From contig DBRO01000048.1 of assembly GCA_002306005.1 (NCBI GenBank), positions 1,792 through 9,234 on the forward strand: a stretch of DNA of 7,443 nt, written 5' to 3'. Shown here in pieces: positions 1,539 through 7,443 of this stretch; position 1 is the stretch's first letter, and every line of letters starts with the position of its first letter. The notes beneath the pieces are model-generated. The model searched no databases, was not told the origin of the DNA, and worked only from the letters and a program-made list of their open reading frames with translations. Source of the DNA: Ruminococcus sp. UBA1366. Lineage in GTDB: Bacteria; Bacillota; Clostridia; Oscillospirales; Ruminococcaceae. A program made the translations under genes and the position numbers.

Positions 1539-2510
1539 TTATATCTTAAAATAGAAAACCATAATTGCAAGGGTAAACATCAGCATCAACGAAACCGAAA
1601 GCACCAGCCCCATCATGGAAGTTCCGCCGCGTGCAATCAGCGCCATGCGCTTTTGCACCGGATTATCCGTATGTGCCTGCACATCTTTAATTTCCGTCTT
1701 GGTACGATCGTAATACCATTTGTTAAACCGCAGCGCGCAAAGCACCGACATCACGGACGAAAGCAAGGACGAAACCAAATTGATGCCATAGAACAAATCC
1801 GTATTCAAAAAAGCAAAGCTCTTAGCCTGCATATCCATACCGAATAGCGACTGTAAGGTATCTGGGTCTGACAGCATGGAAAGAATCTGCGGCACCAGTG
1901 CAAACGCACTAATTAAGAACACCAGAATGCCCAATGCGTGCTGTTTGCGATAAAACAGATAAAATTGCGGAAAAAACAGTGCTGGGATATTCAATGTAAC
2001 ACGCGCCCCGTACTTGCCGATGGCAAGGAACTGCCGGATAAAATAAAACTCGCTTGAGCCAACATAATCAGCGTAATCCCGAACTTTAATTCCTTCAATT
2101 TCCGTGTTTTCATCCACGCGCATCGCATTCTGAACCGTTTCAAACATCCCGGGGCCGGCGTTCTGGTGCAGATCAGAGCCATCCTCCAACGGACTGTTAT
2201 TCGGCGACTCATTAAACGGACGTGCCTCGTCCTGCCGCAAAGGCATCCCACAGGAGTTGCAAAAAATCCCTGTATCCGGATTTTCCGCCCCGCATCGCGG
2301 ACACTTCACCGTGTTGCCGTCCTCGGCAGCATGGCTATGTGCGCTGTTCCACGACAGCCCGCTTTCATGCAGCTCGTGATTCACGCATTCGCCCGATTTT
2401 TCATAGCACGCACGATGATAGGGTGTTCCGCACACCGGACACACCACAATATCATCGCTGTCCTTGAATTTTTCGCTGCACACCATGCAGCGTTCGCCAG
2501 TATAATTCAT
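1539..2510 (-). CDS. Membrane protein with prokaryotic RING-type finger, zinc ribbon and DUF2628-like domain
   Basis: A 323-residue protein with three parts. Residues 8-45 hold eight candidate zinc ligands in a RING/treble-clef spacing: C8, C11, C24, C27, H32, C35, C42 and H45. This resembles the prokaryotic RING family 1. Residues 70-87 (C70, C73, C84, C87) form a zinc ribbon. Residues 88-135 are polar and low in complexity, probably a linker. From about 143 on it resembles DUF2628-type membrane domains, with hydrophobic stretches near 173-187, 192-214, 238-262 and 296-321 and the pattern LFYRKQ followed by a long hydrophobic stretch. The finger region is therefore probably cytoplasmic. It follows proA by 51 bases. 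Its own Shine-Dalgarno is weak, but its ATG overlaps the stop of an 8-codon mini-ORF. The function is unknown; ubiquitin-like ligase activity should not be assumed. Confidence 0.9.
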   Translation of the reverse strand: MNYTGERCMVCSEKFKDSDDIVVCPVCGTPYHRACYEKSGECVNHELHESGLSWNSAHSHAAEDGNTVKCPRCGAENPDTGIFCNSCGMPLRQDEARPFNESPNNSPLEDGSDLHQNAGPGMFETVQNAMRVDENTEIEGIKVRDYADYVGSSEFYFIRQFLAIGKYGARVTLNIPALFFPQFYLFYRKQHALGILVFLISAFALVPQILSMLSDPDTLQSLFGMDMQAKSFAFLNTDLFYGINLVSSLLSSVMSVLCALRFNKWYYDRTKTEIKDVQAHTDNPVQKRMALIARGGTSMMGLVLSVSLMLMFTLAIMVFYFKI

Positions 2511-2561: not shown

Positions 2562-3815
2562 TTAATTCCGGATCTGCCCGTTCCCGTTAATCAAGTACTT
2601 CACGGTGGTCAGTTCCTTTAAGCCCATCGGACCGCGCGCATGGAGTTTCTGCGTGGAAATGCCAATCTCCGCACCCAACCCAAACTGTTCGCCATCCGTA
2701 AACCGCGTGGAGCAATTCACATACACCGCCGCGGAATCGATCGTTTTTTGGAATTCCTCCGCACTGAACAAGCTTTCCGTGACAATGCATTCAGAATGTC
2801 CCGTGGAATATTTCTGGATATGCTCAATCGCCGCGGCAAGGTCATCCACAACCTTCACTGCAAGGATATAATCCAGAAATTCCTTTGCGTAATCTTCTTC
2901 CGTTGCGGGAACAACGCTTTCGCCCAAGATCATCTGCGTAATCGGACAGCCGCGAAGTTCGACCTTGTGCTGATCCAATCTGCGCTTCATCATTGGCAAG
3001 AAGTCATCCGCAACCGATCGATGCACCAAACAGGTTTCCACTGCATTGCACACGCTGGGGCGCTGGGTTTTTCCGTTATCAACAATATCCACCGCCATAT
3101 ACAAATCGGCGCTGGCATCCACATAAACATGGCAATTGCCCGTTCCCGTTTCTATCACCGGAACGGTTGCCGATTCCACAACCGCTTGAATCAGTCCTGC
3201 ACCGCCCCGCGGAATCAGCACATCAATCCACCCGCTCGCCTGCATCATTTCCAGTGCAACGCCACGGGAAGTATCCTCCACCAGCTGGATAATATCCGGG
3301 TGAAAGCCAGCTTTTTTCACTGCCTCGCGCATAATTTCTGTAAGGCAGATATTTGAATAGATGGCTTCCTTTCCGCCGCGCAGAATCACAGCGTTGCCGC
3401 TTTTTAAGCAAAGTGCCGCCGCATCCACTGTAACATTCGGGCGGGATTCATAAATAATACCAACCACGCCCATTGGCACACGGACTTTTGTAATCCGCAT
3501 TCCGTTGGGACGCACGCCGCCGCCTTCAATCTGCCCGACGGGATCTTCCAGCTTGGTGAGATTCATACAAGCATTCGCCATGCCTTGAATTCGCTGTTCG
3601 TTGAGCAACAGTCTGTCCAGCATCGCCTGTGACATTCCCTTTGCTTTTGCTTCGGAAATATCCCGCTCGTTCTGCTCCATAATCCGGTACATATCGCGCG
3701 TGAGCAAATCTGAGATATACTCCAACGCATTGTTTTTCTGCTCCGTCTGCGCATTTGCCAAATCGTATTTTGCCGCGCGTGCGTTTTCGCCCAATCTCTG
3801 GATATAGTTCATCAT
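2562..3815 (-). CDS. proA: Glutamate-5-semialdehyde dehydrogenase (gamma-glutamyl phosphate reductase)
   Basis: Reduces gamma-glutamyl phosphate with NADPH to glutamate-5-semialdehyde, which cyclises to pyrroline-5-carboxylate in proline synthesis. The 417 residues match the usual ProA length. Visible motifs are IYESRPNVTVDAAALCLKSG at 121-140, PRGGAGLI at 202-209, GTGNCHVYVD at 224-233, the active-site cysteine C256 in QRPSVCNAVETC, and ARGPMGLKELTT near the C-terminus. It lies 39 bases downstream of proB, as expected for enzymes that hand over a labile phosphate. The start is odd: the only clear Shine-Dalgarno (GGGGAGG) is about 24 bases before the ATG, with a short GCGC/GCGC hairpin and an A-run between. 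Two adjacent ATG codons (3815 and 3812) are possible starts; no alternative start lies closer to the Shine-Dalgarno. Confidence 0.97.
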   Translation of the reverse strand: MMNYIQRLGENARAAKYDLANAQTEQKNNALEYISDLLTRDMYRIMEQNERDISEAKAKGMSQAMLDRLLLNEQRIQGMANACMNLTKLEDPVGQIEGGGVRPNGMRITKVRVPMGVVGIIYESRPNVTVDAAALCLKSGNAVILRGGKEAIYSNICLTEIMREAVKKAGFHPDIIQLVEDTSRGVALEMMQASGWIDVLIPRGGAGLIQAVVESATVPVIETGTGNCHVYVDASADLYMAVDIVDNGKTQRPSVCNAVETCLVHRSVADDFLPMMKRRLDQHKVELRGCPITQMILGESVVPATEEDYAKEFLDYILAVKVVDDLAAAIEHIQKYSTGHSECIVTESLFSAEEFQKTIDSAAVYVNCSTRFTDGEQFGLGAEIGISTQKLHARGPMGLKELTTVKYLINGNGQIRN

Positions 3816-3854
3816 TTTTTTTCGCGCCGGTTGCGCTTTCCTCCCCTCGGTGTC

Positions 3855-4646
3855 TTATTTTCTCGTGGTAAACAACGTTCCCACGGGTTTGTTTTCAAAC
3901 AAATCATACAGCTTTTTCGGTTTGTCGCCATTCATAATCACCATATCGACGCCGCTTTCCACCGCAATCTCCGCCGCACGAATTTTCGTTGCCATACCGC
4001 CCGTTCCCAGTGCTGTGCCCGCGCCGCCCGCGCAATCACGGATTTCCCCGTTGATATTTTCCACCAGCGGAATTAAGCAGGCATTTTCGAACTTCCGCGG
4101 GTCTTTATCGTAAAGCCCGTCAATATCCGTCATAATAATCAACAAATCCGCTTTCGCAATTCCCGCAACCATTGCCGCCAGCGAATCGTTCTCGCCCACT
4201 TCCAGCTCCAGCTCGTCAATTGCCACCGTGTCGTTTTCATTTACAATTGGAATCACGTTGTATTCCAGCAGACGTTCCAGCGCGTTTTCCACGTTTTTAC
4301 GCCTGTCTTCAATTAAAATATATTTCGTCAATAATACCTGTGCCACCGTCAGGCTGTAATCCGCAAACAGCTTGTCGTACAGATACATCAGCTCGCACTG
4401 TCCGACTGCCGCGCAGGCCTGTTTCATCGGGGTATCTTTCGGACGTGTTGTCAGTCCGATTTTGGACATTCCCAGCCCAATCGCCCCGCTGGAAACCAAA
4501 ACAATCTGCTTTCCGGCATTCTGCAAATCCGCCAGTGTTTTCACCAGCTGTTCCACGCGCCGGATATTGAGCTTTCCCGTTTTATGCGTCAGCGTGGAGG
4601 TGCCGACTTTTACAACCACACGCTTTTTTTGTTTAAAATCAATCAC
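3855..4646 (-). CDS. proB: Glutamate 5-kinase, short form without PUA domain
   Basis: Phosphorylates the gamma-carboxylate of glutamate with ATP, the first and usually proline-inhibited step of proline synthesis. The 263 residues contain only the amino-acid kinase fold: VVKVGTSTL at 11-19 (phosphate loop), SSGAIGLG at 52-59, VNENDTV at 135-141, GENDSLAA at 151-158, TDIDGLYDKDP at 173-183 and GTGGMATKIRAA at 215-226. The roughly 100-residue C-terminal PUA domain of E. coli-type enzymes is absent. The protein ends normally at TAA after the kinase domain, so this is the short form and not a truncation. The start codon is GTG with AGAGG 7 bases upstream. It begins 21 bases after the stop of the dehydrogenase gene and precedes proA, indicating a shared transcript. 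Confidence 0.97.
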   Translation of the reverse strand: MIDFKQKKRVVVKVGTSTLTHKTGKLNIRRVEQLVKTLADLQNAGKQIVLVSSGAIGLGMSKIGLTTRPKDTPMKQACAAVGQCELMYLYDKLFADYSLTVAQVLLTKYILIEDRRKNVENALERLLEYNVIPIVNENDTVAIDELELEVGENDSLAAMVAGIAKADLLIIMTDIDGLYDKDPRKFENACLIPLVENINGEIRDCAGGAGTALGTGGMATKIRAAEIAVESGVDMVIMNGDKPKKLYDLFENKPVGTLFTTRK

Positions 4647-4667
4647 AAAAGCGCCTCTTTCTTCCGG

Positions 4668-5633
4668 TCATTCAACGATAGCACCATTCACCACATGAAT
4701 CGGCTTCCCACTTGCCCAGCACCGGAGATTTTTTGCTACCATGGAAACTAATCTACGGCGGGTTTGTTCCGGCGCCCACGCGATATGGGGTGTTATCGTA
4801 CAATTTTTTGCCGTTTGCAGTACGCAATCCGGCTGCATGGGTTCTTTTTTCAAAACATCCAAACAAGCGCCGCCAATCACGCCGGTGTTCAGCGCTTTGG
4901 CAAGGGCATCTTCATCGATCAATCCGCCGCGCGCGGTATTCATCAGCACCGCTGTACGTTTCATTTTTGCAAGCGAATTCTCATTCATAAGATTATGCGT
5001 TTCCGGATTCAACGGTAAATGCAAAGTAACTACATCCGCGCGCTGTAAAAGCTCCTCAAACTGCACATAAGTAAAACCTGCCTCTGTGACCTTCTCCGAG
5101 GTGCGGTTCCACACCAGTACATTCATCCGGAACGCCTCGCCCAGTTCCGCAACCCGCCTGCCGATATTACCAAAGCCTACAACGCCCAATGTCAGCCCAC
5201 GGATTTCATAAGTTGGCTTTCCAAAATACGAAAACCGCTGTGCGTGAATCCAGTCGCCCTGCTTCACGCTCTCGGCATATTCCGCCGCACGGCTAAACTG
5301 GTTCAGCATCAGCGCAAAGGTATGCTGAGCCACTGCATCGGTGGAATAATCCGGCACATTGCACACAACCGCACCCGCGCGGGTTGCCGCCTCGATGTCC
5401 ACGTTATTATATCCCGTTGCGAACAATCCGATATATTTTAAATTTGGGCAGCGCGCAAACACCTCGGCAGTAATTTTTGTTTTATTGCAAATCGCAGCGT
5501 CCGCATCGCCGACAAGCGCGGCAACATCTTCCGCATCGTCCGCATAAAATTCTGTTTCGCCCAGTTCGGAAATCTCCCACAATTCGTTGAGATTCGCCGT
5601 GATTGTTTCATAATCAAGAATACAGATTTTCAG
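4668..5633 (-). CDS. D-2-hydroxyacid dehydrogenase (glycerate/hydroxypyruvate reductase-like)
   Basis: NAD(P)-dependent interconversion of 2-oxoacids and D-2-hydroxyacids. Numbered from the CTG start proposed here (321 residues): Rossmann motif GFGNIG at 153-158, VWNR at 174-177 after the second beta strand, catalytic Arg in NTARGG (R235), Glu in KKEP (E264) and His in TPHIAWAPEQTR (H283). The Arg after the second strand in place of an acidic residue leaves NADP use open. The substrate could be hydroxypyruvate, glyoxylate or another 2-oxoacid and cannot be fixed from sequence. The start is problematic. A TTG at 5582 has no Shine-Dalgarno and would remove the first beta strand, because the in-frame upstream sequence KICILDYETITANLNEL looks like the family N-terminus. 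In frame only CTG (5633) is available. Removing one A from the AAAA run would join a proper ATG at 5640 to this frame. It follows the membrane-protein gene closely. Confidence 0.88.
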   Translation of the reverse strand: MKICILDYETITANLNELWEISELGETEFYADDAEDVAALVGDADAAICNKTKITAEVFARCPNLKYIGLFATGYNNVDIEAATRAGAVVCNVPDYSTDAVAQHTFALMLNQFSRAAEYAESVKQGDWIHAQRFSYFGKPTYEIRGLTLGVVGFGNIGRRVAELGEAFRMNVLVWNRTSEKVTEAGFTYVQFEELLQRADVVTLHLPLNPETHNLMNENSLAKMKRTAVLMNTARGGLIDEDALAKALNTGVIGGACLDVLKKEPMQPDCVLQTAKNCTITPHIAWAPEQTRRRLVSMVAKNLRCWASGKPIHVVNGAIVE

Positions 5634-5647
5634 TTTTCATCACCCAA

Positions 5648-6100
5648 TCAATCTTCCGGATATTCATCGTCCCGAAAAGCCTCATCGATAAATTCATCCT
5701 GTAAATGCTTTTGTTCCGTCTGTTCTGCTTGTTCTTGCACCTTGCGGCGTTCTTCTTCCTCATGGACTTCCGCAGCCTCACGCGCTTTTTGCTTGCGCGC
5801 ATCCAGCCGCGACAGCACAAACGCGCCGATGAGCAGCAACGCCTCGGCAATGCCCAGCACGGTAATCACCGTTTCGCTGGAGGTGTATTGCGTAATCATC
5901 GTCAGGTCTATGGCAACCAAAATCACTAGATAGTATGGCTTTCTTTTTCTGCCAAACTGCACGGCATACAGGAATGTCGCCAGCATACAGAAAATGAAGT
6001 GCGTGGTAAACGGCAACGGTGTATAAACGTTCTGCACCGTGTTTTGTACGGCATATCCCAACGTTGCCGGAACGAAATTGGACAGCAGTCCTGTTATCAT
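5648..6100 (-). CDS. Small membrane protein with charged coiled-coil C-terminus, function unknown
   Basis: A 150-residue protein I do not recognise. Hydrophobic segments lie near residues 31-49, 55-72 and 77-97, and probably span the membrane three times. Basic residues (GRKRK, 50-54) follow the first segment. The tail from about 98 to 135 is rich in Glu, Lys, Arg and Gln and is likely helical or coiled-coil, and the last 15 residues are strongly acidic. The ATG start has AAGGA about 9 bases upstream (AAGGAAG immediately before a short spacer), downstream of a convincing promoter. It is the first gene of the run leading to the dehydrogenase and proBA, with only 14 bases between its stop and the proposed CTG start of the dehydrogenase. 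No link to proline synthesis can be read from the sequence. Confidence 0.82.
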   Translation of the reverse strand: MITGLLSNFVPATLGYAVQNTVQNVYTPLPFTTHFIFCMLATFLYAVQFGRKRKPYYLVILVAIDLTMITQYTSSETVITVLGIAEALLLIGAFVLSRLDARKQKAREAAEVHEEEERRKVQEQAEQTEQKHLQDEFIDEAFRDDEYPED

Positions 6101-6290: not shown

Positions 6291-7001
6291 TTAATGCACC
6301 GCCACGTGCGGATCATGGAATTCTTTCAGCCTGCGCCGCAAGGCTTCCCGCACGTCTTCCTCAAATGCAATCTGCGGGTTTGCCTCGCCGGCACGGCGTA
6401 AAATCTCCAGCGTAAAATCCGGGTTCAATACTAAAATCGGACCCAGCAAATAGGTTGCAAAGAAGTTTTTCTGCACAAAACCCTCGTAAGGGCTTTGATC
6501 ATTGATGCCTTCCCCGCGCAAAACTTTCAGAAAATGTTCACACGGTGCCAATTCATATGCTTTTGTAAACTGCGCCCGAAACCCCGCGAACTCCTGCCCG
6601 TGGAAATCCCCCAAAACAAAACCGCTGTGCCGGTGCATCATGTCACGCTTAACATAAAAATCAAACAGTCCTAACGCCTTAATTTGTGAACCGTTCTCAT
6701 TTTCCAAATACCGCCCGGTAATTTCCATGGCGTTTCCGGTAAACAAAAACACCGTGCCTTGTGCAATCAATTCCCGTATCCGGTTTTTTAACGGCAGCAG
6801 CTTTGCAATGATTTTCTCCTGCATACGTTCCGTACAAGGCCCCATATAAATCAAATTCATATCCTGAGAAACAAAAGCAGGTTCGGTGCAAAAATTCGTT
6901 TCAAAATATTCGGCATCCGGCGCACAAAGCTTTAAATACCGGACATTGCCCACATCCCCGAAAAGATTACAGTATTCAGGAAAAAGAATTTCAACCCTCA
7001 T
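6291..7001 (-). CDS. gatD: GatD-like glutamine amidotransferase homologue lacking catalytic Cys and His
   Basis: GatD is the glutaminase subunit that, with MurT, amidates D-Glu of lipid II to D-isoglutamine. This 236-residue protein matches GatD over its length: NLFGDVGN near 12-19, then IYMG-x5-R-x-Q at 51-61, GLFDFY at 111-116, R124 (near the position of S. aureus Arg128), and KNFFATYLLGPIL at 178-190. The nucleophile elbow, ICGGYQ in S. aureus GatD, reads FTGNAME here, so Cys94 is replaced by T88. The catalytic His of YLHGP is replaced by L186. The ENHGGR stretch is also lost (RAQFTK). The gene is intact, in frame, has AAGGAG 9 bases before its ATG, and overlaps the MurT-like gene by 11 bases. 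It is therefore not a decaying pseudogene by appearance but a likely pseudoenzyme, or an enzyme using another ammonia source. The comparison uses the S. aureus sequence from memory. Confidence 0.88.
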   Translation of the reverse strand: MRVEILFPEYCNLFGDVGNVRYLKLCAPDAEYFETNFCTEPAFVSQDMNLIYMGPCTERMQEKIIAKLLPLKNRIRELIAQGTVFLFTGNAMEITGRYLENENGSQIKALGLFDFYVKRDMMHRHSGFVLGDFHGQEFAGFRAQFTKAYELAPCEHFLKVLRGEGINDQSPYEGFVQKNFFATYLLGPILVLNPDFTLEILRRAGEANPQIAFEEDVREALRRRLKEFHDPHVAVH

Positions 7002-7443
7002 TTACCGTTTCTCCTTGTGTACTCATTTCAATCCTATGCCGGATGGTTTGCCGAATCACATTCAGTGAATCAATATTGTATAAATCATACAGCACATAAA
7101 TGCTGTCCACGTCCTGCAAATTCACTGCATCCCCGGTTGCCTCTTTGGTATCACAGCAAATGATTTTTTCCTTTGGAATCCCCGCCGTTCGCAGCCGCAC
7201 CATATAGTCCTTATTTCGCGCCCCGCCGGCGACCACCTGTACAACGTCCTCTGTATTCAGAAATTCAAAATCCGTTTCATAAATCCATGCAATATTTTCC
7301 GTCGTCGTTTTCTCATCATAAAAATCGTCCAGTATCAGAATAACCGCCTTTTTTCCCGGCTGCCGCCGAACAAAATCACAAGCACGCGAACAAGCGATCG
7401 GATTCTGTCCCTTGGCAAGATTGGCAACTAATTTCTTTCCGCC
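6991..7443 (-). CDS. murT: MurT-like Mur ligase, C-terminal domain only (5' end beyond window)
   Basis: MurT is the ATP-using Mur ligase subunit of lipid II isoglutaminyl synthase. Only the last 150 residues are here, corresponding to the C-terminal domain (DUF1727/MurT_C). Seen: a GQNPIACSRACDFV stretch like the NP-x-G helix region, a beta strand AVILILDD, WIYETDFEFL (the counterpart of the SWIWDVDFE pattern), VAGGARNKDYMVRLRTAGIP (the counterpart of the SGxRxxDMxLRLKYAGV pattern) and YVLYDLYNIDSL. The loop after LDD is EKTTTENIAW instead of the usual ADGxDVSW, so it diverges from ordinary MurT. The adjoining overlapping gatD-like gene supports the identification and implies a complex. The ATP site and the zinc-ribbon insertion of MurT lie outside the window. 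Confidence 0.85.
   Translation of the reverse strand, partial: GGKKLVANLAKGQNPIACSRACDFVRRQPGKKAVILILDDFYDEKTTTENIAWIYETDFEFLNTEDVVQVVAGGARNKDYMVRLRTAGIPKEKIICCDTKEATGDAVNLQDVDSIYVLYDLYNIDSLNVIRQTIRHRIEMSTQGETVNEG

Follow-up and report, generated by a model that had tools for sequence, protein, structure and literature searches.

The MurT/GatD complex, the lipid II isoglutaminyl synthase, is regarded as a glutamine-dependent enzyme, and in Gram-positive pathogens it is under study as a drug target. In GatD of Staphylococcus aureus, Cys94 occupies the junction of strand 4 and helix 4, where the backbone is strained (PMC5871853), and MurT Asp349 has been proposed as the third residue of the catalytic triad (PMC6113224); for Streptococcus pneumoniae, GatD Asp32 is named in this role (PMC6085368). 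The S. aureus GatD C94G mutation abolished glutamine-dependent amidation and left the ammonia-dependent amidation of lipid II at pH 8.5 unaffected, while MurT without GatD was inactive with any donor (PMC3266927; PMC6085368). Here we describe a gatD-like gene (positions 6291..7001, minus strand) in a 7,443-nucleotide stretch of a Ruminococcus sp. UBA1366 contig (hereafter the window), which encodes a 236-amino-acid protein without the glutaminase Cys and His next to a murT gene. This pair shares the fold and gene order of the complexes of S. aureus (6gs2/6h5e), S. pneumoniae (6fqb), and Streptococcus pyogenes (9sq9), and its type retains the key MurT ligase residues, the zinc ribbon, and GatD Arg128. 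Unlike the canonical complex, it lacks Cys94, His189, the oxyanion glycines, and Gln98, it mostly carries Asn or Glu in place of MurT Asp349, and it has gained a His in a MurT loop. We propose that the noncatalytic GatD enables MurT to use free ammonia, in place of glutamine, for amidation of the peptidoglycan precursor, a reading that we place just on the probable side.

As observed in the first-pass annotation, the open reading frame is GatD-like and has lost its catalytic residues. The frame is complete (ATG at 6999-7001, stop at 6291-6293), it matches PF07685 with 32.6 bits (cut-off, 27), and it scores 66.4 bits against the NCBIfam GatD equivalog NF045636, thus not reaching the 400-bit cut-off. 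Among PDB entries, its matches at an E value of up to 0.1 comprise four distinct sequences, all of them GatDs (9sq9, 5n9m, 6gs2, and 6fqb; E values of 9e-14 to 2e-10), and the protein has a class I glutaminase-like fold that is closest to GatD. The AlphaFold2 model is confident (pLDDT of 95.8), so that the predicted retention of the fold held; in this model, where numbering is one lower than in the protein due to the omission of Met1, a strand ends at Thr88 and a helix begins at Gly89 (protein numbering), an arrangement like that at Cys94 of S. aureus GatD. The PF07685 profile search of the bacterium's own genome did not return the window GatD among its matches. The strong Shine-Dalgarno sequence and the overlap with murT noted earlier are both present: AGGAG (7011..7015, minus strand) stands 9 nucleotides upstream of the ATG, and the murT stop and gatD start overlap by 11 bases (6991..7001, minus strand). 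The same 11-base overlap recurs in 9 of 39 loci with a paired murT frame, these being all but 4 unpaired loci of the 43 found by scanning the genome_contigs collection.

The exact nature of the lost residues had to be corrected in one respect. The window motif T-G-N-A-M-E aligns without gaps to I-C-G-G-Y-Q of S. aureus GatD, both by phmmer and by MAFFT with 28 canonical GatDs, and Cys94 therefore corresponds to Gly89 (codon GGA, 6735..6737; this codon and those that follow lie on the minus strand) and not to Thr88 as first claimed. Thr88 stands at Ile93, and its candidacy is ruled out by the alignments together with the predicted strand/helix junction, which place Gly89 at the nucleophile elbow. 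The other assignments were right: the catalytic His189 is replaced by Leu186 (6444..6446), and the glutamine-contacting Arg128 is kept as Arg124 (6630..6632). In addition, the oxyanion-hole Gly95 corresponds to Asn90 (6732..6734), and Gln98, which follows the CGG motif in canonical GatDs, corresponds to Glu93 (6723..6725). The two catalytic columns thus hold neither Cys nor His in the window. A glycine at the elbow would be easily tolerated once a nucleophile is no longer needed. A substitute Cys elsewhere in the active site was rejected as well; one fused homolog (P0124) carries a Cys one place earlier, yet it has Gly at the nucleophile position.

This remodeling is widespread and occurs in many Clostridia. 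A MurT_C search of same-order genomes found the domain in 95 of 394, of which 28 are canonical and 67 glutaminase-less, none being both (hypergeometric P of 0.004, a value that ignores relatedness); hence, in this sample, the glutaminase-less form is the commoner one. Among the 67, two genomes (G292 and G123) have GatD on another contig and were classed by MurT score, and among the 28, G110 was classed from MurT alone. From 141 loci, 137 had a GatD frame of at least 100 amino acids (L115, L158, L182, and L184 being excluded), and removal of repeats left 133 nonredundant GatDs including the window, in which two MurT rows, those of the window and L046, are truncated. They fall into two sharp classes, 28 canonical GatDs with Cys, His, and the MurT Asp and 105 glutaminase-less GatDs with neither Cys nor His (counting the poorly aligned row L173, 48 bits), and none of the 133 keeps just one of the two. 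In the glutaminase-less class, the Cys94 column holds Gly (102), Ala (2), or Ser (1), and both oxyanion glycines, Gly95 and Gly60, are replaced. His189 is present in 28/28 canonical and 0/105 glutaminase-less GatDs, and the Gln98 column is Q in 28/28 of the former and E in 95/105 of the latter. Arg128 is kept in 100/105, and the column of S. pneumoniae Asp32 holds Asp in 74/105 and Glu in 27/105. Among the 120 closest database relatives listed, the elbow motif is TGN in 119 and TGS in 1, and HGP in none. Neither chance nor a lone odd gene accounts for such numbers, and the collection of TGN homologs beside MurT-like genes, suggested in the first-pass annotation, showed a change that is not sporadic, 104 other nonredundant relatives sharing it.

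The distribution seems centered on the same order. In a sample of 398 genomes from the phylum, 132 had a GatD profile match, and the best 30 readable loci comprised 27 canonical and 3 glutaminase-less cases including the window; the text pattern missed the Cys motif of L219 and the His motif of L209, both canonical, and divergent members among the remaining phylum matches could escape. Further glutaminase-less cases are labeled Lachnospiraceae, Erysipelotrichaceae, Clostridiaceae, and Peptoniphilaceae, and named isolates include Neglectibacter timonensis and Scatolibacter rhodanostii. The 400-bit cut-off of NF045636 was reached in 0 of the 67 glutaminase-less genomes; among 14 controls, 7 matched and 1 exceeded it. 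Our searches found no description of a glutaminase-less GatD in the open-access literature, and loss of the GatD cysteine goes unmentioned in passages of a MurT/GatD study with a 229-sequence tree (PMC11915815).

Several lines of evidence argue for a class maintained by selection. In a tree built from MurT without GatD (109 rows, near-copies left out), one branch (SH-aLRT of 98) has all 87 glutaminase-less rows on the same side, and the same branch was recovered with an SH-aLRT of 99 when canonical MurTs from the phylum were added (82 chosen rows). The ratio of nonsynonymous to synonymous substitution (dN/dS) is 0.06 to 0.26 in 12 close pairs of glutaminase-less GatDs, against 0.03 to 0.10 in three canonical pairs. 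Given these low ratios, the confident fold, and the single-branch placement, the glutaminase-less GatD is under purifying selection and not decaying, in agreement with the first-pass annotation. Moreover, eight full-length MurT-GatD fusions of 717 to 744 amino acids are listed (L039:2561-4711, which is P0121, and P0123-P0127, P0132, and P0138), with Gly at position 94 in three, Ser in five, and His189 in none. The L039 fusion, modeled as one chain, gave a pLDDT of 90.3 and a pTM of 0.88, figures that describe the whole chain and not the interface; the two subunits are putative binding partners.

The MurT partner is kept, as had been claimed, and is found beside gatD in the relatives. In the window, the 3' part of murT (6991..7443, minus strand) encodes the last 150 amino acids with a MurT_C domain (PF08353, 83.7 bits), the contig ending at the window end so that murT is cut and the ATP site falls outside. 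An Asn codon (7294..7296, minus strand; ENIAW for GRDTSW) stands at the Asp349 position, which is substituted in 93/105 glutaminase-less pairs (44 N, 40 E, and 9 others). The partner MurTs retain Lys59 (103/105), Asn85 (100/105), Asp112 (103/105), and Glu113 (100/105), whose replacement abolished S. pneumoniae activity (PMC6085368, section 11), as well as Glu110 (103/105), Arg304 (101/105), and the four cysteines of the zinc ribbon (103-104/105). Altogether, the P-loop, the Mg and acceptor residues, and the Cys4 zinc ribbon are conserved in 100-104 of the 105, and the ligase side looks intact. The two classes are each fixed for a different residue at nine GatD positions (five of them I93, C94, G95, G96, and Q98) and at four MurT positions, one of the latter being a Glu143-to-His change (91/105) in loop 135-143; this loop has been placed at the GatD interface and described as a possible ammonia path (PMC6085368). 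The class changes thus lie mostly on the donor side.

We therefore come to the role of a GatD that cannot hydrolyze glutamine. The C94G mutant kept ammonia use and MurT alone was inactive, and thus a glutaminase-less GatD can still be needed by MurT. The use of free ammonia, already suggested in the first-pass annotation, is favored by analogy with this mutant and is unproven. GatD would hold MurT in its working shape, the acceptor would still be the alpha-carboxyl of D-Glu in lipid II, as suggested by the kept MurT residues, and the natural pairs would run on free ammonia, with Glu in place of Gln98, Asn in place of Gly95, and the new His in MurT loop 135-143 possibly helping, when the pH is close to neutral, to trap ammonium or remove a proton from it. 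The rumen and intestine are ammonia-rich environments. Several records of glutaminase-less loci come, by their titles, from rumen or intestinal samples.

Comparable cases are known. The window naturally carries both substitutions of the S. aureus laboratory mutants GatD C94G and MurT D349N (PMC3266927, PMC6113224); those mutants have a single change in a canonical pair, whereas the window type has also lost His189 and has re-fixed its pocket. Carbamoyl phosphate synthetase 1 (CPS1) likewise keeps a glutaminase domain without the catalytic Cys, replaced by Ser, and takes ammonia as its donor (PMC4655335), and an ammonia-adapted CPS III has been reported in a fish (PMC7657897). Type N NAD synthetase is an amidating ligase working on free ammonia, but it is a single-domain enzyme without a glutaminase part (PMC3376133), unlike the glutaminase-less MurT/GatD, which keeps it. 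Orphan and archaeal MurT-like proteins are also MurT-type ligases without a working glutaminase beside them (PMC11915815; L182 and L184 in our set), but L182 and L184 differ in that no GatD partner was found for them and they group with canonical MurTs in the MurT tree. If ammonia is indeed the donor, wall amidation in these bacteria would be tied to ambient ammonia and not to glutamine supply, such pairs would be a natural test case for the structural role of GatD, which until now has been deduced from a laboratory mutant, and an ammonia-run MurT/GatD would be an untested route in peptidoglycan building.

Several points weigh against free ammonia as the donor. At pH 7.5, ammonia did not serve as a donor for the S. 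aureus pair (PMC3266927), so that natural pairs would have had to gain this ability; further adaptation to near-neutral conditions would be required, to which Glu93, Asn90, and the new His of MurT may contribute. This His may mean little, as S. pneumoniae MurT was little affected by loss of the side chain of Asp139 or Glu143 (PMC6085368), and loop Asp139 is itself replaced in the partner MurTs of this class. In S. aureus, the MurT D349N mutation caused a complete loss or a severe drop of lipid II amidation (PMC6113224). Asp is retained at this position in 12/105 pairs, and Glu is found in 40/105. Other MurT positions are less conserved (Asn270 in 85/105, Arg387 in 57/105, Pro323 in 50/105, and Gly303 in 46/105), and the window's own murT is incomplete. 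The 26 columns with the strongest conservation include Gly89, Glu58, Glu93, Asn90, and Thr88 of GatD, and a new motif, KRDMMHRHNS, occurs in 33 of the 105; this strong conservation of the pocket and the motif exceed what a pure scaffold needs and fit a bound ligand equally well. The function of these pairs, acceptor included, is suggested by sequence comparison. Our literature searches and parts of one gut peptidoglycan review, which leaves the chemistry blank for several genera of these families (PMC11382707), yielded no muropeptide data for genera with glutaminase-less pairs.

A pocket re-fixed and not relaxed, with Arg128 maintained, leads to the most serious alternative, which we consider rather unlikely: GatD would bind a small amine or amino acid, and MurT would couple this donor to the carboxyl group of D-Glu or to a similar acceptor. 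The MurT loop has gained a His, and the active-site loop His of Mur ligases is absent from canonical MurT (PMC6085368, section 11). The S. aureus MurT/GatD worked with glutamine and, at pH 8.5, with ammonia, and accepted no further donor (PMC3266927), and no common neighbor gene hints at another one. Ordinary Mur ligases use free amino acids. The new His is at 143, whereas that of Mur ligases would presumably be expected near MurT position 137. It was first suggested that the pair might bind a cell-wall precursor without glutamine-dependent amidation. The remodeled pocket may bind another ligand or amine. If another amine is the donor, the peptidoglycan would bear an unknown group at a position read by host NOD receptors.

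The conservation of Arg128 and further pocket residues could also mean that GatD is a sensor, which would bind glutamine or another metabolite without hydrolysis and switch MurT on or off, ammonia being the donor. CPS1 retains a dead glutaminase domain in an allosteric enzyme, the activator site of which lies in another domain (PMC4655335). With Gln98, both oxyanion glycines, and the catalytic pair replaced, glutamine is an unlikely ligand, and as no direct sign of regulation was seen, we regard a sensor as improbable.

It was further proposed that the pair regulates a canonical MurT/GatD; such a role, or that of a decoy, toward a separate canonical pair in the same cell now appears very improbable. 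No canonical pair was found in the window's own genome, which is 75% complete, and the argument thus rests on the 66 other glutaminase-less genomes (58 of them at least 90% complete); a second GatD was found in 0/67, which contradicts such regulation at the genome level. In these 67 genomes, 14 further NF045636 matches (18 to 36 bits) comprise a 62-amino-acid fragment and 13 in frames of at least 496 amino acids, which are probably CobQ-like. Two MurT_C genes do coexist in 3 of 43 genomes, but two of these have an orphan MurT without an adjacent GatD found and the third has two glutaminase-less pairs. The latter, G097 (Erysipelotrichaceae), holds two different pairs, L187 and L186. The orphan MurTs (L182:1477-2817, minus strand; L184:452-1792, plus strand) show a canonical Asp349 context; by eye, they are flanked by GlmS-like and deaminase-like genes, and their genomes also hold a TAN-type pair.

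Finally, a broken gene, misassembly, misalignment, or one-codon error is hardly credible, although the genome is a draft in 133 contigs with the completeness given above, as the change is common to 104 other nonredundant relatives, including named isolates, dN/dS is low, the fold is confident, and G-x-C-x-G is present in four of the five further amidotransferase-like matches of this genome (no such pattern was seen in the fifth, L001). These four also indicate that the bacterium has not lost the use of glutamine in general.

Concerning the surroundings, 16 of 46 loci (the L011-L043 group) have downstream of gatD genes that we take, by eye, to be rlmN-, prpC-, and PASTA-kinase-like, possibly a cell-wall signaling neighborhood. 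In the window, the gene just downstream of gatD (5648-6100, minus strand) encodes 150 amino acids with a hydrophobic N-terminal half and a charged C terminus, without Pfam matches over the cut-off. The regions 3-1310 and 2562-5582 (minus strand) hold LeuA-like, ProA, ProB, and D-2-hydroxyacid dehydrogenase genes. A foreign origin of the contig is thought unlikely, ProA being nearest (72% identity; 117 genomes searched) to two same-family genomes, G110 and G173; since both carry canonical MurTs, the window murT-gatD pair may have been exchanged between lineages or differently retained. The protein encoded at 1539-2510 (minus strand) carries a prokaryotic RING-like domain at its N terminus (PF14446, 91.6 bits) together with a zinc ribbon, and its C-terminal half, by eye, appears membrane embedded.
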